Shown: piece after piece, positions 9,103-25,927 of the stretch
How positions within the stretch are numbered: the stretch's first letter is position 1
Layout of the letters: each line of letters starts with the position of its first letter
From: Synechococcus sp. WH 8109
GTDB lineage: Bacteria; Cyanobacteriota; Cyanobacteriia; PCC-6307; Cyanobiaceae
Length of the DNA: 64,000 nucleotides
Assembly (NCBI RefSeq): GCF_000161795.2
Contig: NZ_CP006882.1
Coordinates: 2,046,001 to 2,110,000 of the forward strand
Direction: 5' to 3'
The notes under the pieces: model-generated
Database searches by the model: none
What the model saw: only the letters and a program-made list of their open reading frames with translations
What the model was told of the DNA's origin: nothing
Made by a program: the position numbers and the translations under genes

Positions 9103-9116
9103 GTAACCAATCTGAC
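9103..9116 (+). promoter_or_regulatory. NtcA-like site upstream of nrtP
   Basis: GTA-N8-GAC, one base away from the NtcA consensus GTA-N8-TAC. About 23 bases downstream is TTAACT (9140-9145), a passable -10 element, which is the spacing of NtcA-activated promoters. It lies about 120 bases before the nrtP start in the divergent mobA-nrtP gap. The call rests on pattern and position only. Confidence 0.5.
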
Positions 9117-9188
9117 CAAACAAGGGGTCGGCGAATTGATTAACTGCGCGGGTTAAACGGATTCTCTTTTCGACCGTTTTGCCATCCC

Positions 9189-9213
9189 CGGGCACCTTTC
9201 CTTTTGAAGCCCG
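9189..9213 (+). promoter_or_regulatory. Leader hairpin with TTC-CTTTT-GAA tip, nrtP
   Basis: Outer stem CGGGC/GCCCG (9189-9193 with 9209-9213), a four-base 5' bulge ACCT, an inner stem TTC/GAA and a five-base loop CTTTT. It ends 21 bases before the nrtP ATG. The same architecture with different outer-stem sequences occurs before nirA and before the 44-residue ORF downstream of nirA. There is no T-tract, so it is not a terminator. Confidence 0.5.
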
Positions 9214-9234
9214 AGGTTCCTTCTCTTTTCCTCA

Positions 9235-10776
9235 ATGCTTGGCGACCTTTGGTCGTTCCAGGGCAGGTACCGAACCCTTCACCTGACCTGGATCGCCTTC
9301 TTCCTGACCTTCGTGGTCTGGTTCAACCTGGCCCCTCTGGCCACCACCGTGAAAGCGGACCTGGGTCTGACCGTTGGTCAGATCCGCACCGTGGCCATCT
9401 GCAACGTGGCCCTCACCATTCCGGCGCGCGTGCTGATCGGCATGCTCCTGGACAAATTCGGACCCCGGATCACCTACTCCTCGATCCTGGTGTTCTCGGC
9501 GATTCCCTGCCTGCTGTTTGCGTCCGCTCAGGACTTCAACCAGCTGGTGGTGGCCCGTCTGCTGCTCTCCATCGTTGGCGCCGGCTTCGTGATCGGCATC
9601 CGCATGGTGGCCGAGTGGTTCCCGCCCAAGGAAATCGGCCTGGCTGAAGGCATCTATGGCGGCTGGGGCAACTTCGGCTCCGCCTTCTCCGCCCTGACCA
9701 TGGTGGCCCTCGCTGGCTTCCTCTCCTTCTCCGGCGGCTTCGAACTGCCCACTGGCGCTGTTCTGAACTGGCGCGGTGCGATCGCTCTGACCGGCATCGT
9801 CTCCGCCGTCTACGGCTGCTTCTACTTCTTCAACGTCACCGACACCCCCCCCGGCAAGACGTATCAGCGCCCTGCGAAAACCGCAGGTCTGGAAGTCACC
9901 TCAATGCGCGACTTCTGGGGTCTGCTGGGCATGAACGTGCCCTTCGCAGCCATCCTCTGCGTGCTCTGCTGGCGCCTGACCAAGGTGGGCTTCCTCACCG
10001 CAAGCACCTACCCCCTGGCCCTCGGCGCCGTCGCCGTCTGGTTTGCTTTCCAGACCTGGGGAATCATCCGCACCAACCGCGACCTGATCCTCGGCAACAA
10101 GGTCTATCCCAAGGAAGACCGCTACGAGTTCCGCCAGGTGGCGATCCTCGAGCTCACCTACATCGTGAACTTCGGCTCCGAACTGGCCGTGGTTTCGATG
10201 CTGCCCACCTTCTTTGAAACCACCTTCGATCTGCCGAAGGCCACCGCCGGAATCCTGGCGTCCTGCTTCGCTTTCGTGAACCTGGTCGCCCGTCCTGCTG
10301 GCGGTCTGATCTCCGACCGCGTCGGCAGCCGCAAGAACACCATGGGCTTCCTCACTGCCGGTCTCGGCGTGGGCTACCTGGTGATGAGCATGATCAAGCC
10401 CGGCACCTTCACCGGCACCACCGGCATTGCCGTTGCCGTGGTGATCACCATGCTCGCCTCCTTCTTCGTGCAGTCCGGTGAAGGCGCCACCTTCGCGCTG
10501 GTGCCCCTGGTCAAGCGTCGCGTCACCGGTCAGGTGGCCGGCCTGGTGGGTGCCTACGGCAACGTTGGCGCTGTGACCTACCTGACCATCTTCAGCCTCC
10601 TGCCGATGTGGATGGGCGGCGGCGGCGAACCCACCCCCGAGGTGATCGCGGCTTCCAACAGTGCCTTCTTCCAGATCCTGGGCGTGGCCGGTCTGATCGT
10701 GGCCTTCTTCTGCTTCTTCTTCCTGAAGGAGCCCAAGGGGTCCTTCGCAGACCTGCACGAAGGCGAAACCGCCTGA
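9235..10776 (+). CDS. nrtP: Nitrate/nitrite permease, MFS type (513 aa)
   Basis: Twelve-helix major facilitator of the nitrate/nitrite porter family, the single-protein transporter used by marine Synechococcus instead of the ABC system NrtABCD. Both nitrate signatures are visible: GIYGGWGNFGSAF around residue 140 and GLVGAYGNVGAV around residue 440. MFS loop motifs GMLLDKFGPR and GGLISDRVGSR are also present. It is followed by a strong terminator and then by narB only 82 bases after the stop. Likely NtcA-activated, with a structured leader hairpin. Codon use is strongly biased to C-ending codons, which fits high expression. Confidence 0.96.
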   Translation: MLGDLWSFQGRYRTLHLTWIAFFLTFVVWFNLAPLATTVKADLGLTVGQIRTVAICNVALTIPARVLIGMLLDKFGPRITYSSILVFSAIPCLLFASAQDFNQLVVARLLLSIVGAGFVIGIRMVAEWFPPKEIGLAEGIYGGWGNFGSAFSALTMVALAGFLSFSGGFELPTGAVLNWRGAIALTGIVSAVYGCFYFFNVTDTPPGKTYQRPAKTAGLEVTSMRDFWGLLGMNVPFAAILCVLCWRLTKVGFLTASTYPLALGAVAVWFAFQTWGIIRTNRDLILGNKVYPKEDRYEFRQVAILELTYIVNFGSELAVVSMLPTFFETTFDLPKATAGILASCFAFVNLVARPAGGLISDRVGSRKNTMGFLTAGLGVGYLVMSMIKPGTFTGTTGIAVAVVITMLASFFVQSGEGATFALVPLVKRRVTGQVAGLVGAYGNVGAVTYLTIFSLLPMWMGGGGEPTPEVIAASNSAFFQILGVAGLIVAFFCFFFLKEPKGSFADLHEGETA

Positions 10777-10814
10777 TCCATCTCCCTCCGCAGCACCCTG
10801 TCGCTGCATAACGA

Positions 10815-10849
10815 CCCGGAGCTTCGGCTCCGGGTTTTGTTCTTTTTTT
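10815..10849 (+). terminator. Intrinsic terminator between nrtP and narB
   Basis: Perfect eight-base stem CCCGGAGC/GCTCCGGG closed by a stable TTCG tetraloop and followed by TTTT and a later run of seven T. It ends about 10 bases before the narB start codon, leaving no room for a separate narB promoter after it. narB expression therefore probably relies on partial read-through. Confidence 0.9.
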
Positions 10850-10858
10850 GGTTCCTGC

Positions 10859-13090
10859 ATGACCAACTCACCCCGCAGCGTGCGCAGCCAGTGCCCCTAC
10901 TGCGGCGTGGGTTGTGGTCTGGAGCTTTTGCCTCCTGCCGTGAAGGGTGAGGCCGTGAAACGGGATGCCGAGGGCAACCCGATGTGGACCGCCCGCGGCG
11001 ACCGCGAACACCCCTCCAGCCTTGGCCAGGTCTGCATCAAGGGCGCCACCGTCGGCGAAACCCTGGCCCCAGGCCGCCTGCGCCAACCCCTCTTCCGCCC
11101 GACCCTGGAGGACGACTTCGCACCGATCAGCTGGGACGACGCCCTGAACAAAATCACCAGCCAGATCCAGGCGAGTGTGGCCCGGCGCGGCAACGCCGAT
11201 GGCATCGCCATGTACGGCTCCGGTCAGTTCCACACCGAGGACTACTACCTCGCCCAGAAACTGCTCAAAGGCGCCCTGGGCACCAACAATTTCGACGCCA
11301 ACTCGCGACTGTGCATGAGCTCAGCGGTGGCGGGCTACACCCGCAGCCTGGGCTCCGATGGTCCCCCCTGCAGCTATGAGGATCTCGACCACTGCACAGT
11401 GGCGTTTCTGATCGGCACCAACACAGCCGAATGCCACCCGGTGCTGTTCCAGCGGCTGCTGAAGCGAAAACGCAAAAACCCCGGCAGCGTCAAGATCGTG
11501 GTGGTGGATCCACGCCGCACCGACACCGCCAAAGCCGCCGATATCCACTTGCCGATTGCACCGGGCAGCGACCTGGCCCTGCTGCACGGCATTGCCCACT
11601 TGGTGCTGCGCGAAAACGGCCAGGATCCGGCCTTCATCGACGACCACACCGAGAATTACGACGCCTTTTTTGACGTCGCCGCCCGCTGGACCCCAAGGCG
11701 GGTGGCCCTGTTCTGCAACATCCCCGAAAAACGCCTGCGGGAAGTGGCGACTCTGTTCCACCGGCGCGAGAAGGTGCTCAGCCTCTGGTCGATGGGGGTG
11801 AACCAACGCCGTGAAGGAACGGCCGTGGTGCAGGGATTGATCAATCTGCATCTGCTCACCGGCCAGATCGGCAAGCAAGGCGCGGGCCCGTTTTCCCTCA
11901 CCGGCCAACCCAACGCCATGGGCGGACGCGAGGCCGGAGGCCTAGCCCACCTGCTGCCGGGCTACCGCCTGGTGGCCAACGCCGAACACCGCACCGAAGT
12001 GGAACAGGCCTGGCAGCTGCCGGCAGGACGAATCAACGCCAAGCCCGGATTGGCGGCCTGGCAGCAGATCGAAGCCATGGAGCAGGAGGCGCTGGATCTG
12101 TGGTGGGTGGCCGCCACCAACCCCCTGGTGAGCCTCCCGGATCTCGACCGGGTGAAGTCAGCCATGCAGAAGTGCCCGCTGGTGGTGGTGAGCGAGGCCT
12201 ACGCCGACTCGGAAACATCCCACTACGCCCATCTGCTGTTGCCCGCAGCCCAGTGGAGCGAGAAGGCCGGCGCCATGACCAATTCCGAACGGCGGGTCAC
12301 TTACTGCCCGGCCTACCGGCGCCGCTTCGGCGAGAGCCGTCCCGACTGGGAGGTGTTTGCCGAGGTGGGCCGGCGCCTGGGCTACAGCGAGCAGTTCGAC
12401 TTCGATTCAGCGGCTGAGGTCTACGCCGAATTCACGGCTCTTACCCAGGGCAGGCTCTGCGATGTAAGTGGCCTCAGCCATGAACTGCTGGAAGACGAAG
12501 GACCGCAGCAATGGCCCTATCCCAGTGGCAGCACCCCCACCACAGAAGCCAAACGCCTCTACGAAAACCATCTGTTCGCCACCCCCAACAAACGTGCCCG
12601 CTTCAGCACCGATCAACCGCTGGGACTGGCGGAACCCCCCTGCGACACCTATCCGCTGGTGCTCACGGTGGGCCGCTACCTGGGCCAGTGGCACACGATG
12701 ACCCGCACCGGCAAGGTGGAACGGCTGATGAAACAGCATCCCGAGCCGCTGCTGGAGATTCACCCCGGTGACGCGCAGGAGTTGAAACTGCGCAACGGCG
12801 AACTGGCGGCGATCAGCTCACGCCGCGGCCACCTCACCGCCACGGTGAAAGTCACCGATCGCATCCGGCGTGGATCGGTCTTCCTGCCGATGCACTGGGG
12901 ATTCACCCAGGAGAAGGCCTGCGAAGCCAACACCCTCATGCACGACGAGGCCTGCCCGGTGTCAAAGCAGCCTGAACTCAAGGCCTGCGCGGTGATCGTG
13001 GCTCCCGCCGTCTCGGTGGTGAAGCCCGTTGAACAGCAGAAAGGACGATTGGAGGCCCTGCGCCGGCTGCTCACACCAGCACTTCGCTGA
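10859..13090 (+). CDS. narB: Ferredoxin-nitrate reductase (743 aa)
   Basis: Molybdopterin oxidoreductase that reduces nitrate to nitrite with reduced ferredoxin. The N-terminal [4Fe-4S] motif has Cys12, Cys15 and Cys19 (CPYCGVGC) and Cys59 (GQVCIKG). NSRLCMSSAVAG carries the likely Mo-ligand Cys. The C-terminal molydopterin-dinucleotide domain includes GRYLGQWHTMTRTGK and LPMHWGF. Length is normal for cyanobacterial NarB. It lies directly downstream of nrtP behind an intrinsic terminator and converges with narM, overlapping it by 20 bases. Confidence 0.96.
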   Translation: MTNSPRSVRSQCPYCGVGCGLELLPPAVKGEAVKRDAEGNPMWTARGDREHPSSLGQVCIKGATVGETLAPGRLRQPLFRPTLEDDFAPISWDDALNKITSQIQASVARRGNADGIAMYGSGQFHTEDYYLAQKLLKGALGTNNFDANSRLCMSSAVAGYTRSLGSDGPPCSYEDLDHCTVAFLIGTNTAECHPVLFQRLLKRKRKNPGSVKIVVVDPRRTDTAKAADIHLPIAPGSDLALLHGIAHLVLRENGQDPAFIDDHTENYDAFFDVAARWTPRRVALFCNIPEKRLREVATLFHRREKVLSLWSMGVNQRREGTAVVQGLINLHLLTGQIGKQGAGPFSLTGQPNAMGGREAGGLAHLLPGYRLVANAEHRTEVEQAWQLPAGRINAKPGLAAWQQIEAMEQEALDLWWVAATNPLVSLPDLDRVKSAMQKCPLVVVSEAYADSETSHYAHLLLPAAQWSEKAGAMTNSERRVTYCPAYRRRFGESRPDWEVFAEVGRRLGYSEQFDFDSAAEVYAEFTALTQGRLCDVSGLSHELLEDEGPQQWPYPSGSTPTTEAKRLYENHLFATPNKRARFSTDQPLGLAEPPCDTYPLVLTVGRYLGQWHTMTRTGKVERLMKQHPEPLLEIHPGDAQELKLRNGELAAISSRRGHLTATVKVTDRIRRGSVFLPMHWGFTQEKACEANTLMHDEACPVSKQPELKACAVIVAPAVSVVKPVEQQKGRLEALRRLLTPALR

Positions 13091-13538
13091 AGGCTGCCTC
13101 AAGGTTGTGGTGGTCGTGCCCAGGCCGGGCCAACTTGCACAAGGCAAAGCGATCCAGCTCACTGAGTTGGGTCCACTGCTCCAGGGTCAGCGCCACACCC
13201 CGCACTGTGGCCGCCTCCTGCACCGCAGCGGGCAGCTCCGCCTGCTGTTGCCAGGGGGCACCGCTCACCGGTGGCAGATCCTTGACCATGCCATCTGCCA
13301 TGGAGCGCGTGCAAGCGCGCAGGTGTTGGCGAAGCTGCTCGAGAGCATCGGCCGCATCCGGCCAATCCACCAGGGCTTGACGTTGCTCCTGGGAAAGCTC
13401 AAGCCAGTGGTTGAGCTTCAACTTCACCCCACACAGATCCAATTTGCGTCGCACACACAGAGGGATGCAGCGCCAGTTGCCAATGAAGTCCTGTTCAAAG
13501 GCAAAGCAATGGCTGGCGGAATCAGAACGGCTGGACAT
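13071..13538 (-). CDS. narM: Nitrate reductase-associated protein (155 aa)
   Basis: Matches the nitrate reductase-associated protein family. It has an N-terminal FEQDFIGNWRCIPLCVRRKLD-like region (residues about 13-34), then a helical middle with PPVSGAPWQQ, and ends in a segment rich in His and Glu. NarM has been shown in cyanobacteria to be needed for active nitrate reductase, apparently in NarB maturation. I use the ATG at 13538; a TTG lies one codon upstream. It converges on narB with a 20-base overlap, and an NtcA-like site lies about 60 bases upstream. Confidence 0.85.
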   Translation of the reverse strand: MSSRSDSASHCFAFEQDFIGNWRCIPLCVRRKLDLCGVKLKLNHWLELSQEQRQALVDWPDAADALEQLRQHLRACTRSMADGMVKDLPPVSGAPWQQQAELPAAVQEAATVRGVALTLEQWTQLSELDRFALCKLARPGHDHHNLEAAFSEVLV

Positions 13539-13595
13539 CAACCAAAGCCTTGATCGGTGTCAATGATGACAACGGAAGTCCACGCAAACAGAGAT

Positions 13596-13609
13596 GTTTA
13601 TCTCGATAC
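13596..13609 (-). promoter_or_regulatory. NtcA-like site upstream of narM
   Basis: On the minus strand this reads GTA-N8-AAC, one base off the NtcA consensus. It starts about 58 bases before the narM ATG, a workable distance. No convincing -10 hexamer is seen at the usual spacing, so this is a weak call. The near-palindrome could also serve the small plus-strand ORF beginning at 13622. Confidence 0.3.
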
Positions 13610-13621
13610 AAATCTCGGCCT

Positions 13622-13792
13622 GTGCGCTTCGCCCTCTCCCTCGGAATGTTGCTGGGAATGTCCCATGGATGGGTCACGGCTGAAGCACTCCAACAGCAAC
13701 CCATGCAGGGCTTTGATTCCATAGAAACTGTTAATTCAGCTACACAATTCAACCCATTTCGTAGTCGTTCACACCAATTTTTTCCATACTGA
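13622..13792 (+). CDS. Possible small secreted protein (56 aa)
   Basis: From a GTG start the product opens with a signal-peptide-like sequence: VRFALSLGMLLGMSHGWV, then a small-residue cleavage region TAEA. About 35 mature residues follow, rich in Gln, Ser and Phe, ending HQFFPY. The open frame extends further up to a TTG at 13550, but that adds a polar leader with no export logic. It lies between narM and a small membrane-protein gene. No family is recognised and this may not be a gene. Confidence 0.35.
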   Translation: MRFALSLGMLLGMSHGWVTAEALQQQPMQGFDSIETVNSATQFNPFRSRSHQFFPY

Positions 13793-13816
13793 AGCTCTGT
13801 TCAAAGAGTTTCTGCC

Positions 13817-14128
13817 GTGACCAGCAGCATCTCGTCCGCTTCCGGCCGCAGCCCCATCACCCTGGCCGCAGGTTTCCTGGGTGCCTTCATCGTTGGTTCC
13901 CTCGCCGTGCAACTGGTGCGCAGCCAGACGGCCTCCGTTCAGGCCGGTGCCGCTGGCGTGGAACCGGTGATCGCCGGTCCTGCCGCTCTCTGGGCTCCCT
14001 TGGCCGAGCGCGACATCGCCAGTGCCAACACAGCCGCAACGGCCCAACCCGCTGCTGCCATCCAGCCCTCCGTTGAGCCTGTTGTGGGCTCCGAAGCCAC
14101 CCTCTGGTCTGCCTTCGGCGAGCGCTGA
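13817..14128 (+). CDS. Small membrane-anchored protein with a repeated motif (103 aa)
   Basis: GTG start. A short Ser-rich N-terminus is followed by one membrane helix (about residues 14-31, TLAAGFLGAFIVGSLAVQLV) and an Ala/Pro-rich tail. The tail holds two related segments, AALWAPLAERD (about 56-66) and ATLWSAFGER (about 94-103), separated by a low-complexity spacer. Codon use matches the neighbours, which supports a real gene. No family is recognised. It probably has a single-pass topology with the repeated tail outside the cytoplasm. Confidence 0.6.
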   Translation: MTSSISSASGRSPITLAAGFLGAFIVGSLAVQLVRSQTASVQAGAAGVEPVIAGPAALWAPLAERDIASANTAATAQPAAAIQPSVEPVVGSEATLWSAFGER

Positions 14129-14180
14129 TCGCACTGCCCACGTAGCACAGCCCACCAGCCGGCCCGCATAAGGTGCCGGC

Positions 14181-14879
14181 ATGGGGATCCAGCGCCGTCA
14201 CTTCCTCCAGCGAACGGGCGGCCTGGCCTTGGCCGCCCTGATGCAAGCGCGCCCCGTTGAGGCAGCAGAGGAGGGGTTCTGCATCCCGAATGATCCACTC
14301 GAGGCCCTGATGTCGGGAAACCGCCGGTTTGCCGAGGCCTGGCGCCTGGCCGAGCAAAACAACGGAACGACGCCCCGAACGGCGGATCCCGACCCGCGCT
14401 GCTTCAACTCCCCCAGGGCGTTGGCCACCAGCCAACATCCCTGGGCCACCGTGCTCACCTGCTCTGATTCACGGGTTTCGCCGAACTGGGTGTTCGACAC
14501 CACCCCTGGCGAGCTATTCGTGATCCGCAACGCCGGCAACGCCGCATTCACCGAAGCCATTGCCTCCATTGAGTACGGCGTCAGCGTTCTCAAGACGCCG
14601 CTGCTGATGGTGATGGGACACAGCGGCTGCGGAGCCGTTACAGCGGCGATGGACTCCAACCCGCTGACCCCCTCCCTGGAGCGGCTGATCCAACCCATCC
14701 GGGAGAACATCAACGGCAGCAGCGATCTCGAGGACGCCGTGAGGCGCAACGCCCTCGCCAGCGCCTCCACCTTGATTCAACGCAGCGCCGTTCTGGCTGA
14801 GGCCAAAACCAGTGGTGCGCTGAAACTGGTGGTGGGTTGTTTCCAACTCAACAGCGGTGTTGTCAGCTTGATCGAATGA
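14181..14879 (+). CDS. ecaB: Beta-class carbonic anhydrase with Tat signal (232 aa)
   Basis: Zinc enzyme interconverting CO2 and bicarbonate. Zinc ligands and dyad are Cys94, Asp96 and Arg98 (CSDSRV) and His147/Cys150 (HSGCGAV). The N-terminus carries [11 protein letters not shown], a hydrophobic stretch and ARPVEA, that is, a twin-arginine signal, so the enzyme is probably exported folded to the periplasm, like EcaB-type enzymes. The symbol is assigned by this resemblance only. Its stop overlaps the moaC start as ATGA, so it is coupled to a molybdopterin operon for no obvious reason. The family call is strong. Confidence 0.88.
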
Positions 14880-15352
14880 CGCAAGACCTGAGTCATCTGA
14901 ACCAGCAAGGCGAGGTTCACATGGTGGACGTGGGGGACCGTCCGGCCACCCACCGCGAAGCCCATGCCCGTGGCGCCATTCGCATGGACGCCGCAACCCT
15001 CAGCTTGATCCAGCGAGGCGAGACACCGAAAGGAGATCTGCTGGCGGTCGCCCGGGTGGCAGCGATCCAGGCCGCCAAACGCACCTGGGAGCTGATTCCC
15101 CTTTGCCATCCGCTGCCACTCAGTGGCATGGATGTGTCGATCGACGCCGACGCCTCCCTGCCTGGCCTGGTGCTCCACTGCCGTTGCCGCACCACAGGCC
15201 AGACCGGGGTGGAAATGGAAGCGATGACGGCCGTGTCCGTGGGGCTGCTGACCCTCTACGACATGCTCAAGGCGGTTGATCCAGCCATGACGATCGAGGC
15301 GATCCAGCTGGAGTTCAAAGAAGGAGGGCGGAACGGTGTCTGGAAACGCTGA
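14876..15352 (+). CDS. moaC: Cyclic pyranopterin monophosphate synthase (158 aa)
   Basis: Second step of molybdopterin synthesis, converting MoaA's product to cPMP. The family run [11 protein letters not shown] is at about residues 74-84. GETPKGD carries the conserved Lys (52), and the C-terminal half has GVEMEAMTA and [13 protein letters not shown] overlap with the upstream carbonic anhydrase and a 17-base overlap with moeA downstream indicate one transcript. Confidence 0.95.
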
Positions 15353-16586
15353 GCCCTACGGACGCGAAGGGCTACCCCTCGAAGAGGCACGTCGACGGGT
15401 TCTTGCGGCGCTTCAGCCGATCACAGCAAGCAACACAGTGCCGCTGCAGCAGGCCCTCTGCCGGGTGAGCGCTGCGGATGTGCTGGCCAGCGATGCCGTA
15501 CCGGGGTTTCGGGCCTCGATCATGGACGGCTACGCCTTGGGGCAGAGCCACCAGCCCAAACCTGGGGACACCTGGCAGCTGAAGGGACGCTCCGCTGCCG
15601 GCCAGCCCTTCAACGGAACCCTGGCCACCGGCGATGCGATCCGCATCCTCACCGGTGCTCCACTGCCTGACGGTGCCGGCTGGGTGCTGCCCCAGGAGCT
15701 GATCAGCGTGGACGGCACCAGCCTCCAGCTGGTGAAAGAGGCGTCGGATCGTCCCTGGATTCGCCCCGAGGATGAGGAATGCCGACCGGGAGACCTGCTG
15801 CTGGCCGCTGGACAGCGCCTCGGTGCCGCTGATCTCGCACGCCTTGCCAGCTGCGGCATCGCCGCCCTAACCGTTGCTCAGCAACCCCGCATCGGACTGC
15901 TGATCAGCGGGGACGAGCTGGTGCCACCCGGAACAGCGCGGCAACCCGGTGCCATCTGGGAGAGCAACGGCACGCTTCTGGAGACAATGTTCCGGGCACT
16001 CGGGCAATCGGTGACCCAGCGACGGGTGGTGGCCGATCAACCCGACGCCCTGCGCCAGGCCCTGCTGGATCTGGCACAGGACTGTGACGTGGTGGTGAGC
16101 ACCGGCGGCGTCTCCGCCGGCGACACCGATTGGATCCGACCCCTGGTGGCGGAGCTGGGTGCTGTGGACTTCTGGAAACTGTTCCTACGCCCGGGGCGCC
16201 CCTTTGCCTTCGGCAGCATCGGTGAGGGCGTGCCGTTTTTCGGACTGCCGGGCAATCCCGTAGCCGCGGCGGTCACCGCCCTGCAACTGCTCTGGCCTGC
16301 CCTGCAGGTTCTGGAGGGCCAAAGCGAACCGGAGCTGTTCCACCGGGTGATGGTGGAACTCGCCGACCCGTTGTCCCGCCGACCGGGACGGCCGGAATTG
16401 GCTCGGGCCCGCCTCGACACCAACGCCGCAGGAACGCTGCTGGCACGGGTGGATGGATCGCAGGCCTCGTCCCGGATCGGTTCCCTGCAACACGCCGATC
16501 TGCTGCTGGAACTGCCAGCGGAAGCCGGCCCGCTCGAAAGCGGCACCCGTCTCTGGGCCCAGCTGATTCGTCAGCGGATTTTTTAA
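15336..16586 (+). CDS. moeA: Molybdopterin molybdenumtransferase (416 aa)
   Basis: Inserts molybdenum into adenylylated molybdopterin. It has the MoeA N-terminal MDGYAL motif (about residue 65), [11 protein letters not shown], then the MoCF-binding fold with STGGVSAGD, the [10 protein letters not shown] loop, and a C-terminal beta domain. The GTG start at 15336 is inside moaC. The 3' end overlaps a convergent unknown gene by four bases. Length is typical. Confidence 0.95.
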
Positions 16587-17380
16587 GCCGGATCAGGCTG
16601 AAAGCAGCGGCGTTCCCAGGCCATGAGCTGGCCCAATGAATCGAAATGGATGCTGATCTGCTGAAACAGGGCAGCGCTAAGACGGCAACCGATCTCGAGG
16701 CTGAAGGGTGCACTGGGGAGCTCACTGGGCACCGAGAACACCAGGCCGTTAGGCATCACAGCTGAGCAGTCGTTGTTCAACAGCTGGCTTGGATCGAACA
16801 CCAGCGGAGCGGCGTCCTCCGCCTGGCCGTTCACCCCCGCCTGCGGTCTGAGCATCTGCCGCTCGCCACTCCATCCCTGCACCGGCGCCAGCAGGGCCTC
16901 GGGTGTCCCGCACGCGGGACGGTCGGGTTCGGGATCGGTGCTGTTCAAGCAACGGAAACCCACCGCCCCAACACGCTGCAAACGCCAGCCGCCGTCAAGC
17001 GGTTCCCAGAGCAGCACCAGCATCGAGCGGGAGCGACCGCAGAACAGGTTGATCTCATGGCCGAAGCAGGGGCGATCGGGATCCACCCCCAGGCTGGACT
17101 GACCGCCCGCCCCGGGAAACTGCCAGCAGCCTCCACCGGCGTTGTAGGTGGCCCGACTGATGGGGTAGGTGGCCTTACCCCCGGGGGCAAAGGCCAGACC
17201 CCATCCATCCCACACCCCGTGGTCGTCATCGGAAAAGGAAATCGCGTAGGTGGTGGGGTCGATCCGACGGGACGGACAGTGCAGATCCAGCCGACCGCTG
17301 CCGTCCCGCTCAAACCAATGGCCGCAGCCTTGCCAATGGCCCACGAAATTGCGGCGGTTGAGGGTCCATTGATCAGTCAT
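16583..17380 (-). CDS. Conserved protein, possibly lipocalin-like (265 aa)
   Basis: Soluble protein with no signal peptide. The first part (FVGHWQGCGHWFERDG, SFSDDDHGVWDGWGLAF) has the alternating aromatic/Gly pattern of a beta-barrel, and the protein may belong to a cyanobacterial DUF3598-like, lipocalin-fold group; I am not certain. The second part carries RSMLVLLWEPLDGGWRL, again beta-rich. It sits convergent to moeA with a four-base overlap and 59 bases from the divergent epimerase gene. Function unknown. Confidence 0.6.
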   Translation of the reverse strand: MTDQWTLNRRNFVGHWQGCGHWFERDGSGRLDLHCPSRRIDPTTYAISFSDDDHGVWDGWGLAFAPGGKATYPISRATYNAGGGCWQFPGAGGQSSLGVDPDRPCFGHEINLFCGRSRSMLVLLWEPLDGGWRLQRVGAVGFRCLNSTDPEPDRPACGTPEALLAPVQGWSGERQMLRPQAGVNGQAEDAAPLVFDPSQLLNNDCSAVMPNGLVFSVPSELPSAPFSLEIGCRLSAALFQQISIHFDSLGQLMAWERRCFQPDPA

Positions 17381-17439
17381 GTCCGTGACGGCATGGAACG
17401 GTCGATCTCCTTAGGGTCGCCCCAACAGCCATCCCCGCC

Positions 17440-18303
17440 ATGGACCTGACGATCGTTGGCTGCGGCTACGTGGGGCTCGCTCTGGCGGAGCGGCTGCAGC
17501 CAAGACGCCCCCAGCTGAAGCTGACGCTGACCACCACCAGCAGCGAACGGCTGGAGCAACTCAGGCCCCTCGCCGATCGGGTGGAGCTGTGCGACGCCAC
17601 CGACCCCGCGCAATTGCGGGACGCCCTGCGGCAGAGCAGCAATGCCGTGTTCTGCCTCGGGCCAAAGGGAGATCGCCAGGTGGATGCCAACGGCTACCGC
17701 CACACCTTCGTCGACAGCTTCCGCTGCTTGACGTCGCTGTTGCCACAACTGCCGGAACTGCGGCAGATCGTCTACACGGGCAGTTGCTCGGTATACGGCG
17801 ATGCCGAGGGGGACTGGGTGGATGAGCAAACGCCACCCGCGCCAGGCCGCGGCCATGGCGATGTTCTGCTGGAAGGCGAACAACTGCTCAACGGCATCAG
17901 CGGCCGGCGGGTGTGCATCCTGCGCCTCGGGGCGCTCTATGGCCCTGGCCGCGATCTCGACCGACGCCTGCACGGACTCGCTGGACTGGAACGCCCTGGC
18001 AGCGGATCGACCTACAGCAACTGGCTGCATGTGGTGGATGCCGCCGGTGCCCTGGAAGCCGCTATCGATGCTGAATGGGCCGGACTGGTGAATGTGGTCA
18101 ACGACGAGCCGATTCGGCTGAGGGATCTGGTGGGGCGCAGCCTGCAGCGCCAAGGTCTGGCCCCCGTGCGCTGGCTTGGGCAGGACGAACCGGGTTCAGG
18201 AGGCCGACGGATCCGCAACACCCGGCTCAAACAGCTGGGCTACCAGCTGCAGCACCCGCGCCTTGATCAGAGTGGCGTGTTGGCCTCCAGCCAGGTGCCC
18301 TGA
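17440..18303 (+). CDS. NAD(P)-dependent nucleoside-sugar epimerase-like protein (287 aa)
   Basis: Short-chain (SDR, extended) Rossmann protein. It opens with MDLTIVGCGYVGLALAERL, a GxGxxG dinucleotide-binding loop, and has TGSCSVYGD (active Ser/Tyr region) at about residue 109. The classical YxxxK is not clear, so it may be an atypical member such as the YeeZ type. LRLGALYGPGRDL follows. The 3' end overlaps moaE on the opposite strand by 37 bases. Substrate unknown. Confidence 0.78.
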   Translation: MDLTIVGCGYVGLALAERLQPRRPQLKLTLTTTSSERLEQLRPLADRVELCDATDPAQLRDALRQSSNAVFCLGPKGDRQVDANGYRHTFVDSFRCLTSLLPQLPELRQIVYTGSCSVYGDAEGDWVDEQTPPAPGRGHGDVLLEGEQLLNGISGRRVCILRLGALYGPGRDLDRRLHGLAGLERPGSGSTYSNWLHVVDAAGALEAAIDAEWAGLVNVVNDEPIRLRDLVGRSLQRQGLAPVRWLGQDEPGSGGRRIRNTRLKQLGYQLQHPRLDQSGVLASSQVP

Positions 18304-18695
18304 CCAGCGCACCACTCCCGTTTCCAGAACGGGGCCTGGTGCTTGAGTTGCTCCAACAACGCGGCCGAGCAGCGCTGCGCCGCCCCACGGCGATCGGCCT
18401 GTACCGCCACCAGCACGATCGGCTCACCGGGGGCAAGCTTGCCCACCCGGTGCAGCACCAGAATCGGCCCCGCCCGGTGCTCCTGCTGCAGACGCAGCGC
18501 CATGGCCGTGATCTGACGTTCGCAAAGGCCGGGGAAGTGCTCCAGCTCCAGTGCCTCCAGAGGCCGGCCATCAATGGTGGTGGGACGCACCCGACCAATA
18601 AAGATCGCCGCGGCCGCGGCATCACCGCTCCAAAGCGCCAGTTGCTGCCAAGGATCAAAGGGATCCGGGCACACCTCCACACGGCAATCGGTCAC
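18267..18695 (-). CDS. moaE: Molybdopterin synthase catalytic subunit (142 aa)
   Basis: Large subunit of molybdopterin synthase, which adds the dithiolene sulphurs to cPMP using thiocarboxylated MoaD. Family marks are GRVRPTT, LELEHFPGLCE, VLHRVGKLAPGEPIVLVA and FWKREW. GTG start. It follows moaD by three bases on the same strand, so the two subunits are cotranslated. Confidence 0.94.
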   Translation of the reverse strand: MTDCRVEVCPDPFDPWQQLALWSGDAAAAAIFIGRVRPTTIDGRPLEALELEHFPGLCERQITAMALRLQQEHRAGPILVLHRVGKLAPGEPIVLVAVQADRRGAAQRCSAALLEQLKHQAPFWKREWCAGQGTWLEANTPL

Positions 18696-18698
18696 GCT

Positions 18699-18935
18699 TC
18701 AACCCCCCGTGAACGGTGGAAGAAAGGCCAACTCATCACCGGCCTGCAATGGCTGATCGGCACCGACCAACTCCTGGTTCACCGCAATGCTGATGCCCTC
18801 CAGCGGACCAAGATCCAACTGATTCCAGACCTCACGAACCGTCGAGACGCTTGTTGTGAACGGAAGGGAACGCTCGGCCCAACCGGCGCGTTCTCGCAGG
18901 GAAGCGAACAGCAGCACCTTTAGCACCACGTCCAT
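18699..18935 (-). CDS. moaD: Molybdopterin synthase sulphur carrier subunit (78 aa)
   Basis: Ubiquitin-fold sulphur carrier. It begins VVLKVLLFASLRERAG and ends PPFTGG; the terminal Gly-Gly is the site of thiocarboxylation. I begin at ATG 18935; a longer open frame upstream is antisense to moaB and is not needed. Three bases separate it from moaE. Confidence 0.93.
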   Translation of the reverse strand: MDVVLKVLLFASLRERAGWAERSLPFTTSVSTVREVWNQLDLGPLEGISIAVNQELVGADQPLQAGDELAFLPPFTGG

Positions 18936-18980
18936 GGCAGCTGGAGCGGTTCTAGCGTCCGAGGGCTCCGCCGCTGTGCC

Positions 18981-19478
18981 ATGGGCCTGTCCATCGCCCT
19001 GCTCACCATCTCCGACACACGCACCCTGGCGGACGACAGCAGCGGAGATCAGCTGCAGCGCAGCCTTGAAGACGCGGGGCATCGCCTTCAGGAGCGACAA
19101 CTCTGCCCAGATGATCGCTATCAAATCCGGCGTGAACTGAGCCGCTGGATCGCCAATCCTGCGGTTGATGTGGTGATCACCAGCGGCGGCACCGGGCTCA
19201 CCGGCCGCGATGGCACCCCCGAAGCGGTGGCACCGCTGCTGGACAAAACAATCGAAGGATTCGGTGAACTGTTCCGTGTGCTCTCCTTCGAGAGCATTGG
19301 CACCAGCACCCTGCAAAGCCGCTGCCTTGCCGGCGTGGCCAACGGCACATTCGTGTTTGTACTGCCGGGATCTCTGGATGCGGTGACCACCGCTTGGAAC
19401 CGGCTCATCCGGGCTCAACTCGATGCCGACACCCGACCGTGCAACCTGGCTCAGCTCCGGGCTCGGTTGAAGGAATAG
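18981..19478 (+). CDS. moaB: Molybdopterin adenylyltransferase-like protein (165 aa)
   Basis: MoaB/Mog-type protein: SIALLTISDTRTL at the N-terminus, TSGGTGLTGRDGTPEAV (the molybdopterin-binding loop, about residues 69-85) and FVLPGSLDAV near 130. MoaB or Mog adenylylates molybdopterin before metal insertion by MoeA. Divergent from moaD with 45 bases between starts. Confidence 0.93.
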   Translation: MGLSIALLTISDTRTLADDSSGDQLQRSLEDAGHRLQERQLCPDDRYQIRRELSRWIANPAVDVVITSGGTGLTGRDGTPEAVAPLLDKTIEGFGELFRVLSFESIGTSTLQSRCLAGVANGTFVFVLPGSLDAVTTAWNRLIRAQLDADTRPCNLAQLRARLKE

Positions 19479-19499
19479 AGCGGAACCGAGCGGAGCAGT

Positions 19500-20288
19500 T
19501 CAGAACGGAATCGGCATCGTGACCGCTGCCGGTGTGGGCATACAGGCTTCAACCTGCTGATCAATCACCTCACCCACCACAACGATCGAGGGTGACTTGA
19601 AGGCTTCGGCTCGGCATTGATCGGCAACATCAACCAAGGTGGCTTTGAGGCAGCGTTGCCCCGCCACCGTGCCCTGCTGGATCACCGCCACGGGAGTAGT
19701 CGCGGCCAAACCACCCGCCATCAGCTCCTCTGCAATCCGGGGCAGGTTGTGCAGCCCCATGTAGATCACCAATCCGTCACTGGCCGCAGCCAGAGCACGC
19801 CAATCCACGGAAGGACGGCGCTTGTCGATTTCCTCGTGACCGGTAACGAAGGTCACCGATGACCCCGCCCGCCGGTGGGTGACGGGAATTCCGGCGTAGG
19901 CAGGGGCAGCAATGCCAGCGGTGACACCAGGCACCACCTGAACAGGAATGTTCCGCTCCGCCAGGTAAGCGGCTTCTTCCCCTCCACGACCAAACAGGAA
20001 GGGATCACCCCCCTTCAAGCGCACCACCGTGCTGTGCTTCTGGGCCATTTCCACGAGCACGGCATTGGTGCTGGGTTGGGGCACCGAATGATGTCCGCGA
20101 CGCTTGCCGACAAAACGGCGTTCACAGGTTGCCGGCACAAGATCCAGCACTTCCTCGGGCACCAGCGAGTCGTACACCAGGGCATCGCACTGACTCAGCA
20201 GCCGATGCGCCTTCAGCGTGAGCAACTCTGGATCGCCGGGACCAGCTCCCACCAGATAAACGGTTCCGGTTTGTTCAGCGGTGGTCAC
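19500..20288 (-). CDS. cobA: Uroporphyrinogen-III C-methyltransferase (262 aa)
   Basis: SAM-dependent methyltransferase making precorrin-2, the branch to siroheme and cobalamin. Motifs are VYLVGAGPGDPELLTLKA at the N-terminus, YDSLVP, VRLKGGDPFLFGRGGEEA, VPGVTAG and GIPVTHR. The single-domain length shows it is the methyltransferase alone and not CysG. The GTG start overlaps the stop of the CbiX-like gene as GTGA. Siroheme is the cofactor of the nitrite reductase encoded at 21550. Confidence 0.95.
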   Translation of the reverse strand: MTTAEQTGTVYLVGAGPGDPELLTLKAHRLLSQCDALVYDSLVPEEVLDLVPATCERRFVGKRRGHHSVPQPSTNAVLVEMAQKHSTVVRLKGGDPFLFGRGGEEAAYLAERNIPVQVVPGVTAGIAAPAYAGIPVTHRRAGSSVTFVTGHEEIDKRRPSVDWRALAAASDGLVIYMGLHNLPRIAEELMAGGLAATTPVAVIQQGTVAGQRCLKATLVDVADQCRAEAFKSPSIVVVGEVIDQQVEACMPTPAAVTMPIPF

Positions 20289-20947
20289 GGCAGAGAAACA
20301 AGCAGATCGATCAGGGCCTGGCGGGTGGGGGGATGCTCCAGCAGAGGAGGCAATCCACCAGCTTCGCTCAACGCATCCGTCATCCGGTTTGGCGCGAGGG
20401 TTAATGGCAGTGGCCGGGCCCTGGGGTGGCGCTGCTGGAACTCGGGCCAGGCATCAAAAGGAACCAAGGGCAAAGCCAGGCGAGACGCCAGCATCGCGAG
20501 GAAGCGATCCGCCACCCCCGGGCGCAAGGGGTGGTGCACCAGCACAGCATCCCGGCGATCAGACGACGGAAGTGCTGAGAGCACAGCGTTCCACCACCTG
20601 GTCCAAGAGCCCAGGAAGGGCAGCAAACGCACACTGGCTCCGGATCGATGAAGCCTGTTGCGAATAGCTGGCACATCCGTGCGGGCGTGCGCCCCAGGCA
20701 GCAGCAGCAAGGGAACAACCCAAGAGGATTGGGGAAGCGCCGACACAGGTTGTTCAGCCGTCAGCACCTCCAACTGCACGGGCGCCGAGCGCCGCTGAGC
20801 CAGAAGGTCTGGCAAAGAGGCCAAACACTCAGGAACAACACCGCCACTGCGGCCATGCACCACCAGATGCAACCCATACCGCCCCTCATCGGAAGCGTCA
20901 TTCCGTAGCAATGGCCACGGATCGATGACCGCACCGGCTGATGTCAT
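20285..20947 (-). CDS. CbiX-like sirohydrochlorin chelatase (220 aa)
   Basis: Resembles the CbiX/SirB class II chelatases: LHLVVHGRSGG with the first conserved His (about residue 31), PGAHARTDVP with the second (about 87), and a second half holding VLVHHPLRPG. It would insert iron (siroheme) or cobalt into the product of CobA. It is coupled to cobA by GTGA and lies next to nirA. I start at ATG 20947; the frame stays open further upstream, but that is a Val/Pro repeat antisense to the next gene. The precise metal is inference. Confidence 0.75.
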   Translation of the reverse strand: MTSAGAVIDPWPLLRNDASDEGRYGLHLVVHGRSGGVVPECLASLPDLLAQRRSAPVQLEVLTAEQPVSALPQSSWVVPLLLLPGAHARTDVPAIRNRLHRSGASVRLLPFLGSWTRWWNAVLSALPSSDRRDAVLVHHPLRPGVADRFLAMLASRLALPLVPFDAWPEFQQRHPRARPLPLTLAPNRMTDALSEAGGLPPLLEHPPTRQALIDLLVSLP

Positions 20948-20974
20948 CAGGTTGTTGTGAACGTTAGATGAGTC

Positions 20975-21292
20975 ATGGCGCCCCGCCGTCGTTTTGATCG
21001 TGCCCCATTGGACAGCCGCTCCTACCGAGAGCCGCTGGACGGACGGATTGAGCGGTACGACTTCCGAAACGACCGGGACGACGTCCGGGACGACGTCCGG
21101 GACGACCGATACAGCCGGGGATACGAGCCCAGTGAGGCCCGTTACGACCGGTACGACCGGTACGACCGAAGCTTCGACCGCCCCGCCGGACCCTCCGAGC
21201 TCGACCGAGACTTCGCTGCGATGAAGCGGGTTTGGCAGATGCTCCGTGCCGGAGCGGTGCGCATGGTTGGCGAAATTGGACGCCAATACTGA
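20975..21292 (+). CDS. Asp/Arg/Tyr-rich repeat protein (105 aa)
   Basis: Unusual composition. Residues 1-70 are a highly charged low-complexity region containing RDDVRDDVRDD (about 33-43) and RYDRYDRYDRS (about 56-66), encoded by 12-bp and 9-bp tandem repeats. The C-terminal third, DFAAMKRVWQMLRAGAVRM, looks like a normal amphipathic helix. It sits between the siroheme genes and the nirA promoter, divergent from the CbiX-like gene with 27 bases between starts. The charge pattern suggests a disordered, possibly RNA- or protein-binding tail. No family is recognised; it is probably real because the divergent position and codon phase are clean. Confidence 0.55.
   Translation: MAPRRRFDRAPLDSRSYREPLDGRIERYDFRNDRDDVRDDVRDDRYSRGYEPSEARYDRYDRYDRSFDRPAGPSELDRDFAAMKRVWQMLRAGAVRMVGEIGRQY
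21077..21106 (+). repeat. Tandem 12-bp repeat inside the Asp/Arg-rich gene
   Basis: Two perfect copies of GACGACGTCCGG followed by a partial third. They encode DDVR units in frame. Copy number is likely to vary between strains by slippage. Confidence 0.85.
21143..21169 (+). repeat. Tandem 9-bp repeat inside the Asp/Arg-rich gene
   Basis: Three copies of TACGACCGG, the last with one end base changed. They encode YDR units in frame. Together with the 12-bp repeat they create most of the low-complexity region of the encoded protein. Confidence 0.85.
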
Positions 21293-21337
21293 GGCCGAAG
21301 CAGGTTGCCTTTTACGGCCTCGCGGGAACCGTCAGAT

Positions 21338-21351
21338 GTAGCCGGTTTTAC
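21338..21351 (+). promoter_or_regulatory. NtcA site upstream of nirA
   Basis: GTA-N8-TAC, a perfect NtcA consensus, 198 bases before the nirA start. NtcA is the global nitrogen activator of cyanobacteria and binds this palindrome about 22 bases before the -10. I do not see a clean TAN3T at that spacing. If it is used, the transcript has an untranslated leader of more than 150 bases that includes the hairpin at 21448. No coding sequence is supported between 21293 and 21549. Confidence 0.7.
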
Positions 21352-21447
21352 AAATCGGACAGAACAAGACCCTGGAGTTGATCAACACCAAAAGTGTTCT
21401 CTTTGTTACGGACCAGGGCTGCCTTCGCAGTGTTTATTCAGTCAACC

Positions 21448-21475
21448 CAACGCTCCCCTTCGTTTTGAAGCGTTG
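21448..21475 (+). promoter_or_regulatory. Leader hairpin with TTC-GTTTT-GAA tip, nirA
   Basis: Outer stem CAACGC/GCGTTG (21448-21453 with 21470-21475), a 5' bulge TCCCC, inner stem TTC/GAA and loop GTTTT. It ends 74 bases before the nirA ATG. Same plan as the hairpins before nrtP and before the 44-residue ORF. No T-tract. Confidence 0.5.
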
Positions 21476-21549
21476 CCGGTCTTCGGGCCATCTCGATTGA
21501 TTCGCGCCTCGTCTTTGAGCAATTAATCCGCCCAATCGTTAATCGACTT

Positions 21550-23091
21550 ATGACCATTAGCTCTCCCTCCAGGCCCTACCTGGATGGCAAGAAGCTCAAC
21601 AAGATCGAGCAGAACAAGGCGGCCAAAGATGGCCTGTTGGTCGGCAGCGAAATCGAAAAATTCGCCGAGCTCGGCTGGGAGCAGGTGGATGGAACCGACC
21701 TTCAGTTGCGTTTGAAGTGGTACGGCATGTTCTGGCGTCCGAAAACGCCAGGCAAATTCATGCTGCGCCTGCGGGTGCCCAATGGCGTGCTGACGGCCGA
21801 TCAGCTGCGGGTGGTTGGCTCCATCGTTGAGCGCTACGGCGAAAACGGCAGCTGCGACATCACCACCCGTCAGAACCTGCAACTGCGCGGCGTGCTGCTG
21901 GGCGACCTGCCGGAAATCCTCAAACGGCTGAAGGAAGCCGGCCTCAGCACGATCCAATCCGGCTTCGACAACCCCCGCAACGTCACCGGCAACCCCATCG
22001 CCGGCATTGATCCCAACGAGATCGTCGACACGCGGCCCTACACCACCGAGCTGCAGAACTTCCTCACCAACAACTGCCAGGGCAACCCGGAGTATTCGAA
22101 CCTGCCCCGCAAGTGGAACACCGCCGTTGCTGGCGCGAAAGACAACTTCCTGCTCCACAACGACATTGTTTTCCACCCCGTGGAACGGGATGGGGTGATG
22201 GGATTTGGCGTCTGGATCGGCGGTGTTCTGTCATCGCAAATGAACGCCTATGCCGTTCCCCTTAACGCCTGGGTGAAGCCAGACGAAATCTGCAAGATGA
22301 CTGACGCCGTGATCCGGCTCTGGCGTGACAACGGTGAGCGCGACAAGCGCCCTAAAGGCCGCTTCCGCCTCTACCTGGATCAAGTGGGCCACGACGTGTT
22401 CCGCAGCCAGGTGGAAGAACTCTTCGGTCCGTTGACCCCCGACCCGGGCTCTGTTTTCAACACCACGCCACGCTCCCACTACGGCTTCCATCCCCAGAAA
22501 CAGGAGGGGCTCTCCTACGCCGGACTGCACGTTCCGGTGGGTCGCCTAACCGCCCAGGATCTGCAGGATCTCGCAACCGCCAGCCTCAACTATGGCAGCG
22601 GCGAGGTGCGTCTTACCGAAGATCAAAACATCATTCTCGTTGGCCTTCCCAACGACAAGCTCGACGCCCTGAAGGCAGACGCCCTGGTGCAACGCTTCCC
22701 GCTTGAGCCCGGTCACATCTCTGCAGGAACGGTGTCCTGCACCGGCAACACCTACTGCGGTTTCGCCCTCACCAACACCAAGGACCAAGCCCTGGAAGCG
22801 GCCAAGGAACTGGATCAGGAGCTCAATCTTCCTGATGAGCTGAAGATCCACTGGACCGGCTGCCCCAACACTTGCGGCCAGGCCTACATGGGTGCCATCG
22901 GCCTCACCGGCACCAAAGCCAAAAACAGTGAAGGCGTGATGGGAGAGGGCTACACGATGACCATCGGTGGGTCCCAAGGAGCCAACCCAAGCATCGGCGA
23001 AATCCACCGCAAAGCGATCCCTGCCGATGAGATCAAGGCCGCTCTCAAAGAGGTGTTGATCGAAAAGTTCGGGGCCACCCCTAAGGCCTGA
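21550..23091 (+). CDS. nirA: Ferredoxin-nitrite reductase (513 aa)
   Basis: Reduces nitrite to ammonium with six electrons from ferredoxin, using siroheme and a [4Fe-4S] cluster. The cluster ligands are Cys397 and Cys403 (CTGNTYC) and Cys438 and Cys442 (TGCPNTCGQ). The two ferrodoxin-like half domains are visible, with RLRVPNGVLTADQLR near residue 75 and HVPVGRLTAQDL near 325. Length matches plant and cyanobacterial NirA. It lies downstream of a perfect NtcA site. The siroheme genes are directly upstream on the other strand, and a 44-residue ORF plus a nitrite-channel gene follow. Confidence 0.96.
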   Translation: MTISSPSRPYLDGKKLNKIEQNKAAKDGLLVGSEIEKFAELGWEQVDGTDLQLRLKWYGMFWRPKTPGKFMLRLRVPNGVLTADQLRVVGSIVERYGENGSCDITTRQNLQLRGVLLGDLPEILKRLKEAGLSTIQSGFDNPRNVTGNPIAGIDPNEIVDTRPYTTELQNFLTNNCQGNPEYSNLPRKWNTAVAGAKDNFLLHNDIVFHPVERDGVMGFGVWIGGVLSSQMNAYAVPLNAWVKPDEICKMTDAVIRLWRDNGERDKRPKGRFRLYLDQVGHDVFRSQVEELFGPLTPDPGSVFNTTPRSHYGFHPQKQEGLSYAGLHVPVGRLTAQDLQDLATASLNYGSGEVRLTEDQNIILVGLPNDKLDALKADALVQRFPLEPGHISAGTVSCTGNTYCGFALTNTKDQALEAAKELDQELNLPDELKIHWTGCPNTCGQAYMGAIGLTGTKAKNSEGVMGEGYTMTIGGSQGANPSIGEIHRKAIPADEIKAALKEVLIEKFGATPKA

Positions 23092-23102
23092 TCGCTGCTG
23101 TC

Positions 23103-23131
23103 GCCGTGACGCTTCCTTTTGAAGTCACGGC
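23103..23131 (+). promoter_or_regulatory. Intergenic hairpin with TTC-CTTTT-GAA tip, after nirA
   Basis: Perfect eight-base outer stem GCCGTGAC/GTCACGGC (23103-23110 with 23124-23131), two-base 5' bulge GC, inner stem TTC/GAA and loop CTTTT. It starts 11 bases after the nirA stop and ends 30 bases before the next ORF. With no T-tract after it, it is unlikely to be a terminator. It could be a stability or processing element, or a regulatory element for the downstream genes. Confidence 0.6.
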
Positions 23132-25855: not shown

Positions 25856-25927
25856 GCTTTCGTAGCAATTGCTACCCCTGCTGGGTCAGTCGCTCCTGAA
25901 GACTGATCACAGCTTGAGGCCGGACCT

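Follow-up and report, generated by a model that had tools for sequence, protein, structure and literature searches.

A hairpin common to nitrate and nitrite gene leaders of marine Synechococcus as a probable conserved RNA element

Described leader RNAs and three hairpins of the nitrate/nitrite region

The iron-responsive element of eukaryotes is a small bulged hairpin on the mRNAs of one pathway, in which the stem is variable and the loop is constant. Another small motif, mini-ykkC, was later identified as a guanidine riboswitch. Here, we describe three bulged hairpins of Synechococcus sp. WH 8109 in a stretch of 64,000 nucleotides (nt) of contig NZ_CP006882.1 (forward-strand positions 2,046,001 to 2,110,000), hereafter the window. 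They are labelled P (the nrtP copy), N (the nirA copy) and O (the copy between nirA and ORF44, an open reading frame (ORF) of 44 codons ahead of nitM); Table 1 gives the coordinates. We found that N, O and P are very probably a conserved sense-strand RNA element, and that copies of it can be recognised only at nrtP, nirA and ORF44-nitM.

The comparison with the iron-responsive element concerns only the way such an element works; the present element is bacterial, its loop is unrelated, and homology is not claimed. The hexaloop of ANTAR targets is unlike the present loops. The tandem hairpins of ANTAR targets resemble ours in being leader hairpins, two of which stand in tandem in nrtP (PMC3369931, PMC8164766), but P, N and O differ in having no terminator. 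For this reason an ANTAR-responsive leader, in which paired hairpins overlap a terminator and an ANTAR protein is present, was rejected; the ANTAR proteins of the genome were not searched for. The mini-ykkC motif has in common with the present element that small repeated hairpins occur in the leaders of functionally linked genes (PMC2864571); however, no Rfam match was obtained here, and the nirA and ORF44 copies are single. The glnA and Downstream-peptide motifs are nitrogen-linked and cyanobacterial, and they are similar to our case as conserved leader RNAs of marine cyanobacteria; one of the two classes precedes short peptides, and some glnA copies are tandem (PMC2864571). However, both have been suggested to lower their genes in nitrogen depletion (PMC2864571), whereas the nitrate/nitrite genes here are raised.

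We searched the window against Rfam 15, which has glnA and Downstream-peptide among its families, and found no match at the gathering thresholds. At E ≤ 5, the region 5000-27000 gave six weak matches, none of them at N, O or P. This agrees with an earlier note on the window, which had not recognised the hairpin as a described motif. The words nitrate and nitrite are absent from the main text of Weinberg 2010 (PMC2864571). In titles and abstracts of mostly non-subscription literature, no published description of a hairpin shared by nirA and nrtP leaders was found, which does not prove its absence from print.

The positions and sequences of P, N and O in the earlier note were re-read in the window and were correct. 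The 11-mer TTCSTTTTGAA, which the note had called rare, occurs three times in the window against 0.05 expected, and none of 100 shuffles contained three copies. The statement that the hairpins are not followed by a T-tract was borne out both by the sequence and by the terminator scans: no T-tract is found 3' of P, N or O, and the scans list only one and two other sites, near or below shuffle level. An intrinsic terminator (a G+C stem and then a T-tract) was thus rejected for all three.

Stem compensation, specificity and distribution

We compared the outer stems in orthologous leaders. The variants of N were AACGC/GCGTT, AGCGC/GCGCT, AGCAC/GTGCT, AGCGT/ACGCT and GCCGT/ACGGC. For O, a series was found from GTGAC/GTCAC through the G-U intermediate GTGGC/GTCAC (L257 and L258) to GTGGC/GCCAC, and for P the stem was CGGGC/GCCCG, GAGC/GCTC (L024, L031, L303) or GGTC/GGCC (L025, L304, L306, L307). 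The outer stems vary and still pair, as the earlier note had supposed, and in many marine Synechococcus the hairpin is kept with compensatory change. Across relatives, the constant part is the 3' side, about YTTTYGARG, within the paired outer stem; the loop variants on record are UUCU, UUAU, UUCC and UUCA.

In 26 hand-anchored rows, 97.6% of the cells were paired, a figure biased upward because the rows were picked for having the element, and both-sided change occurred in all five outer pairs. The percentage paired or the covariation score was reached by none of 500 shuffles, and the number of pairs with both-sided change by 8 of 500. With slid partners, pairing fell to 26 to 47%. A MAFFT alignment of untrimmed N and O copies (A1) was discarded because its 5' arms were misaligned. 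The cells of 77 distinct copies comprised 341 Watson-Crick, 24 G-U, 5 A-C and 15 other combinations. The excess of G-U over A-C (naive p-value 0.0003, from copies that are not independent and include a few misassignments) suggests a sense-strand RNA. For 18 nirA leaders, RNAalifold predicted the outer stem and H3, the third hairpin of that leader; with the helices imposed, 92.7% of the cells were paired versus 89.2% in shuffles (reached by 0 of 500).

Three covariance models were used: R1 was made from N copies only, R2 from all three groups, and R3 from O and P only, with the nirA copies left out. Their E-values are rough, since the models are short. In the strain's own genome, a single contig of 2.11 Mb, R1 found nirA alone and aligned O poorly. 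R2, with 150 of 705 first-look candidates scored, gave three matches at E ≤ 1, namely P (0.0038), O (0.042) and N (0.55), all on nitrate/nitrite genes. The sequence TTCNTTTTGAA occurs six times in this genome, three times outside P, N and O. The copy at 168077 has an irregular stem only, that at 818248 is without outer stem and antisense within a 232-codon ORF, and that at 1068226 (minus strand) lies in a protein-like open frame and forms a short CGAC/GTCG stem, with one additional base on the 3' side. With filters off and E ≤ 1, R2 reported P, N and O and none of these three.

The 34 genomes of the genus, part of whose sequences were R2 training material, gave 82 R2 matches at E ≤ 1: 27 at P, 19 at O, 18 at N and 18 elsewhere, the last within chance (up to about 34 expected). 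The three sites held 47 of the 50 matches at E ≤ 0.1 and 18 of 18 at E ≤ 0.01. Equal frequency at unrelated loci, a possibility raised in the earlier note, was therefore not observed (64 of 82 matches at the three sites). In the neighbouring genus g34 (31 genomes), there were 42 matches at E ≤ 1, and 25 of the 30 fetched ones lay at N, O or P. Among 400 family genomes searched with stricter filters, 72 had a match at E ≤ 0.1, with about 40 matches expected by chance. Nine outlying matches were opened; L224, L226-L229 and L233 fall within open frames or on the strand opposite to them, L235 overlaps no listed frame, and the remaining two, L221 and L234, are cut loci. Five further ones were opened, four of which lie within long open frames. 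The fifth, L263, runs across the end of one frame shortly ahead of the next and has no TTTT core.

R3, which had not been given any nirA copy, placed N third in the window with E 0.31, behind two copies that belonged to its training set; the match after N had E 1.9. A further 22 loci, each carrying the N hairpin, yielded 19 R3 matches at E ≤ 10, of which 7 were at O, 11 at N and 1 elsewhere, and N was recovered in 11 of the 22 loci with E from 0.97 to 9.9.

The distribution was followed by a genome scan for NirA (80 loci, most titled Synechococcus or Prochlorococcus) and by whole-genome searches of the genus, in which nrtP was found in 29 and nirA in 27 of the 34 genomes. The leaders that were read carry the hairpin in most marine Synechococcus, and also in RCC307 (L083), Candidatus Synechococcus spongiarum (e.g., L041, L044), Synechococcus PNGco_S (L081), an Aphanocapsa feldmannii record (L059), an uncultured cyanobacterium (L027) and one Prochlorococcus (L048). 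Among 121 loci with a nirA leader, 80 were matched (46 distinct) and 41 were missed. A lenient presence test in the genus, where some leaders are identical, was passed by N in 21/27, O in 20/27 and P in 28/29. Reversed leaders passed it in 12/27, 2/27 and 0/29 cases, respectively, and reverse complements in 1, 1 and 0. Because the lenient test is unclean for nirA, we base the case for N on its position and covariation. In the 54 distinct loci whose nirA identity is 75% or more, O and ORF44 were both present in 43 and both missing in 5; ORF44 without O was found in 3 (L030, a Prochlorococcus; L027; L272). In 52 loci of lower nirA identity, O was counted in none and ORF44 in 18.

Some leaders of other types were also read. 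Many other family genomes have a far more divergent nirA, 46-49% identical (L277-L296), and in six leaders of this type no hairpin of the motif kind was noticed. Prochlorococcus-type nrtP leaders (L073, L316) have two successive short hairpins with U-rich loops and without GAA. In 20 nrtP leaders beyond the family (L319-L338), the core pattern was found twice (L326, L333) and the bulged plan in neither; L333 has a perfect GATTCGG-CATTTT-CCGAATC hairpin.

NtcA-like boxes (GTAN8TAC-like, at most one mismatch) were inspected at distances of 20-60 nt. It is new here that N lies 34-42 nt past the end of such a box (mode 39; 51 of 100 distinct leaders, Prochlorococcus included), that an extra nrtP hairpin, P0, has a similar spacing (36-38 nt in 26 of 37 distinct leaders), and that O lies between genes whose WH7803 counterparts are reported to be cotranscribed but to differ in time course (PMC9430850). 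Six leaders have a second NtcA-like box at 30 nt, and a box pair at 21 nt in one Prochlorococcus leader was left out of the count. The canonical NtcA promoter is centred near -40.5 (PMC9430850). Because of the box spacing and this centring, the bases of N and P0 are predicted at about +2 to +10, and N would sit near the mRNA 5' end of nirA. P is the second hairpin of the nrtP leader, after P0.

Possible function and competing explanations

The earlier note had proposed a conserved RNA structure common to nitrate and nitrite genes, and the compensation, the confinement of R2 matches and the empty Rfam search support it. We lean toward the reading that it is a cis-acting post-transcriptional element of marine Synechococcus nitrate/nitrite mRNAs, read by a putative trans-acting factor. 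In strain WH7803, nirA, the 44-residue ORF and nitM are cotranscribed yet their time courses differ, which the authors regard as a sign of specific RNA processing (PMC9430850). A stem that varies but stays paired, with a loop that is almost the same on the different mRNAs of a pathway, resembles a protein-bound element. Control of stability, processing or translation would fit its location close to the mRNA 5' end and at a suspected site of processing. Among the protein-binding, riboswitch-like and mRNA-processing roles named in the earlier note, the sequence does not discriminate, and the WH7803 data lend some support to processing (PMC9430850).

The outer stem would present a near-constant pyrimidine/U-rich loop, formed by the 5' C-rich bulge and then UUCNUUUUGAAG. 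The trans-acting partner would most likely be a sequence-specific RNA-binding protein or an RNase-associated factor, and its binding may alter how stable each transcript is or how it is processed or translated. In this way, the import of nitrate and nitrite, the reduction of nitrite and the ORF44-nitM portion of the operon could be tuned jointly once NtcA has turned transcription on.

Several results weigh against this reading, to begin with the fact that its mechanism step is one that we infer. The earlier note had drawn the hairpin with an inner stem TTC/GAA, and this part of the plan is insecure. The inner helix is only moderately conserved and showed mostly one-sided change in the 26 rows: one pair is invariant, one goes from C-G to U-G in six rows, and one is changed on both sides in just one row and unpaired in two. 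Neither this helix nor H2, the second hairpin of the leader, was predicted by RNAalifold in the 18 nirA leaders, where further pair types were also no more frequent than in shuffles (347/500). Some O copies have GCTGAC or GCTGAT ahead of TTTTGAAG, and in copies with GCTGAC/TTTTTGAAG the inner helix as drawn is not formable; such deviant copies might form U-A plus tandem G-A pairs. In leader folding, start-codon accessibility showed no clear effect, and P was absent from the minimum-energy structure of the nrtP leader.

The same is true of some search results and of the distribution. N by itself was weak in the whole-genome R2 search (E 0.55), and R3 failed on N in 11 of the 22 loci. In the genus, 6 of 27 nirA leaders have no recognisable N, and in genus g34 P is altered or hard to make out in the nrtP leaders L299, L300 and L302. 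The 42 Prochlorococcus-titled loci gave a recognisable copy in one, while 31 were missed and ten weak A+T-rich matches were not counted; many Prochlorococcus keep ORF44 though the nirA leader is without N. O was found without a recognised ORF44 in 3 of the 54 loci (L017, L166, L022).

The strongest rival, which we regard as possible but not probable, is a passive 5'-terminal or intercistronic structure that shields from 5'-dependent decay or marks RNase cleavage, with no dedicated factor. This could explain the position of N, and of P0 for nrtP, near the predicted mRNA 5' end, the free variation of the stem sequence, and the location of O, whose flanking genes are reported to share a transcript but to differ in time course (PMC9430850). 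However, a protective stem needs no loop of about YUUUYGARG, yet this loop is kept across three loci and many lineages, and P is second in its leader rather than at the 5' end.

A small riboswitch that senses a metabolite or anion (nitrate, nitrite or another nitrogen-status signal) is improbable. The restriction of copies to nitrate/nitrite genes and the leader position, with three hairpins in the nirA leader, would suit it, and the two hairpins of the nrtP leader recall small tandem-hairpin riboswitches; however, the loop is very small, and no expression platform was seen in the form of terminators, start-site sequestration or pairing of the bulge with its flank above permutation level. Start-codon sequestration was rejected because blocking the 5' arm barely shifts the unpaired fraction at -18..+15 (from 0.64 to 0.56 for nrtP, 0.46 to 0.50 for nirA and 0.69 to 0.69 for ORF44), and so was an H-type pseudoknot of the bulge with the 3' flank, which looks attractive in individual sequences (ACCT/AGGT in nrtP), with permutation results of 116/500 for nirA and 164/500 for nrtP. 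A special form would be a miniature riboswitch class for nitrate, nitrite or a direct product, with one hairpin each in nirA and ORF44-nitM and an additional one in nrtP; we regard it as quite improbable. If true, it would mean pathway-specific control in marine Synechococcus on top of NtcA.

We give little credence to a trans-acting small RNA that pairs with the UUUUGAAG loop. Nitrogen-responsive small RNAs, Yfr28 and Yfr2, exist in Prochlorococcus (PMC7368042), and the hairpin is most constant on the 3' side of its loop; however, the loop varies in the four ways given above.

A DNA operator for NtcA or another regulator is very improbable. The hairpin looks palindromic, and the WH7803 study assigned GTCACGGCCGTCAC to NtcA as the putative site of nitM, with three departures from consensus as the authors state (PMC9430850). 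In L015, the WH7803 locus, this sequence comprises the 3' arm of O and the bases that flank it. An RNA element would call the published assignment at nitM into question. Against an operator, the arms change in sequence while the pairing stays, DNA would not show the G-U to A-C asymmetry (24 to 5), and a separate NtcA-like box precedes N. We also rejected N, O and P as NtcA boxes, since by reading no GTAN8TAC lies inside any of them and separate boxes lie upstream of N and P0. Chance likeness of unrelated leader stems, conceivable for three short elements whose inverted repeats are each unremarkable alone, is negligible in view of the rarity in the window, the covariation, the R2 specificity and the leave-one-group-out recovery of N by R3.

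Marine Synechococcus is an important oceanic consumer of nitrate, and discussion of its nitrate genes has centred on their control by NtcA. An RNA element spanning the regulon would provide an additional, post-transcriptional level of control specific to nitrate and nitrite. It could explain why nirA and the 44-residue ORF are reported to be uncoupled within one transcript, and the hairpin is a small and defined bait for an RNA-binding regulator in picocyanobacteria.

Coordinates and neighbouring features

Table 1. Hairpins, genes and NtcA-like boxes of the nitrate/nitrite region (positions in the window).
Feature	Coordinates	Strand	Details
NtcA-like box of nrtP	9103..9116	+	GTAACCAATCTGAC; 5/6 consensus bases
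P0, first hairpin of nrtP leader	9155..9179	+	AAACGG-ATTCTCTTTTCGA-CCGTTT; predicted near mRNA 5' end
P, motif hairpin of nrtP	9189..9213	+	CGGGC-ACCT-TTCCTTTTGAA-GCCCG; ATG 21 nt further 3'
nrtP, nitrate/nitrite transporter of the major facilitator superfamily (MFS)	9235..10776	+	Pfam MFS_1; TIGR00886 NarK family
NtcA-like box of nirA	21396..21409	+	GTTCTCTTTGTTAC; 5/6 consensus bases
N, motif hairpin of nirA	21448..21475	+	CAACGC-TCCCC-TTCGTTTTGAA-GCGTTG; 74 bases 5' of nirA
H2, second hairpin of nirA leader	21478..21489	+	GGUC-UUCG-GGCC
H3, third hairpin of nirA leader	21495..21528	+	GATTGATT...AATTAATC; 21 nt before ATG
nirA, ferredoxin-nitrite reductase	21550..23091	+	Pfam NIR_SIR, NIR_SIR_ferr
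O, motif hairpin in the nirA/ORF44 gap	23103..23131	+	GCCGTGAC-GC-TTCCTTTTGAA-GTCACGGC; 30 bases 5' of ORF44
ORF44, conserved small protein of 44 residues	23162..23296	+	conserved; 44 codons
nitM, nirC-type formate/nitrite transporter	23332..24219	+	Pfam Form_Nir_trans

ORF44 had no match in Pfam or NCBIfam. Its counterpart in WH7803 is strongly induced (PMC9430850). The ORF44 product is unlikely to be the binding partner of the hairpin, because nirA and nrtP of one and the same genome keep the hairpin where ORF44 is lost (L163, L141). ORF44 looks degenerate in L011 and L012, where O is also gone, and in L017 and L166, where O remains. We also rejected the identification of ORF44 with NirP1. 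NirP1 mostly has 76-86 residues, one conserved Cys and three Trp, and it is reported to be missing in Prochlorococcus and in the majority of marine picoplanktonic Synechococcus (PMC10907346); ORF44 has 44 residues, no Cys and one Trp.

The loop of P0 has a loose likeness only to the motif. Its stem changes are compensated (AACGG/CCGTT, AGCGG/CCGTT, GGCGG/CCGTC, GACGG/CCGTC and GGGCG/CGCCC), and in other genera of the family (L298, L305-L308, L310) a different loop recurs around CGGTTTGCAT or CGGTCTGCAT. In the nirA leader, H2 has a C(UUCG)G tetraloop. Over 18 relatives, 87.5% of the H2 cells were paired, with both-sided change in 1 of 4 pairs; for H3 the values were 92.3% and 3 of 8 pairs.

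The gap between cynS and the ORF at 25928 (the cnaT position) contains a perfect NtcA box, GTAGCAATTGCTAC, which is followed by a hairpin (span 25862-25906). We considered TCAGTC-GCTCCTGAA-GACTGA (25886-25906) as a fourth copy and rejected it: its loop is partly similar to the motif and recurs in relatives, but its stem is not preserved there (e.g., L008, L010, L014). R2 reported no copy at this cynS/cnaT pair, which has its own perfect box. Another perfect NtcA box, GTAGCCGGTTTTAC at 21338-21351, lies between nirA and a divergent ORF, in addition to the nirA box of Table 1. The divergent ORF (20285-21286, minus strand) adjoins a uroporphyrinogen-III C-methyltransferase gene at 19500-20288. 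In two genomes of the genus, the nrtP match consists of two overlapping pieces and appears frameshift-like (L144 in G162; L143 and L147 in G257), and one of these genomes is a single contig.

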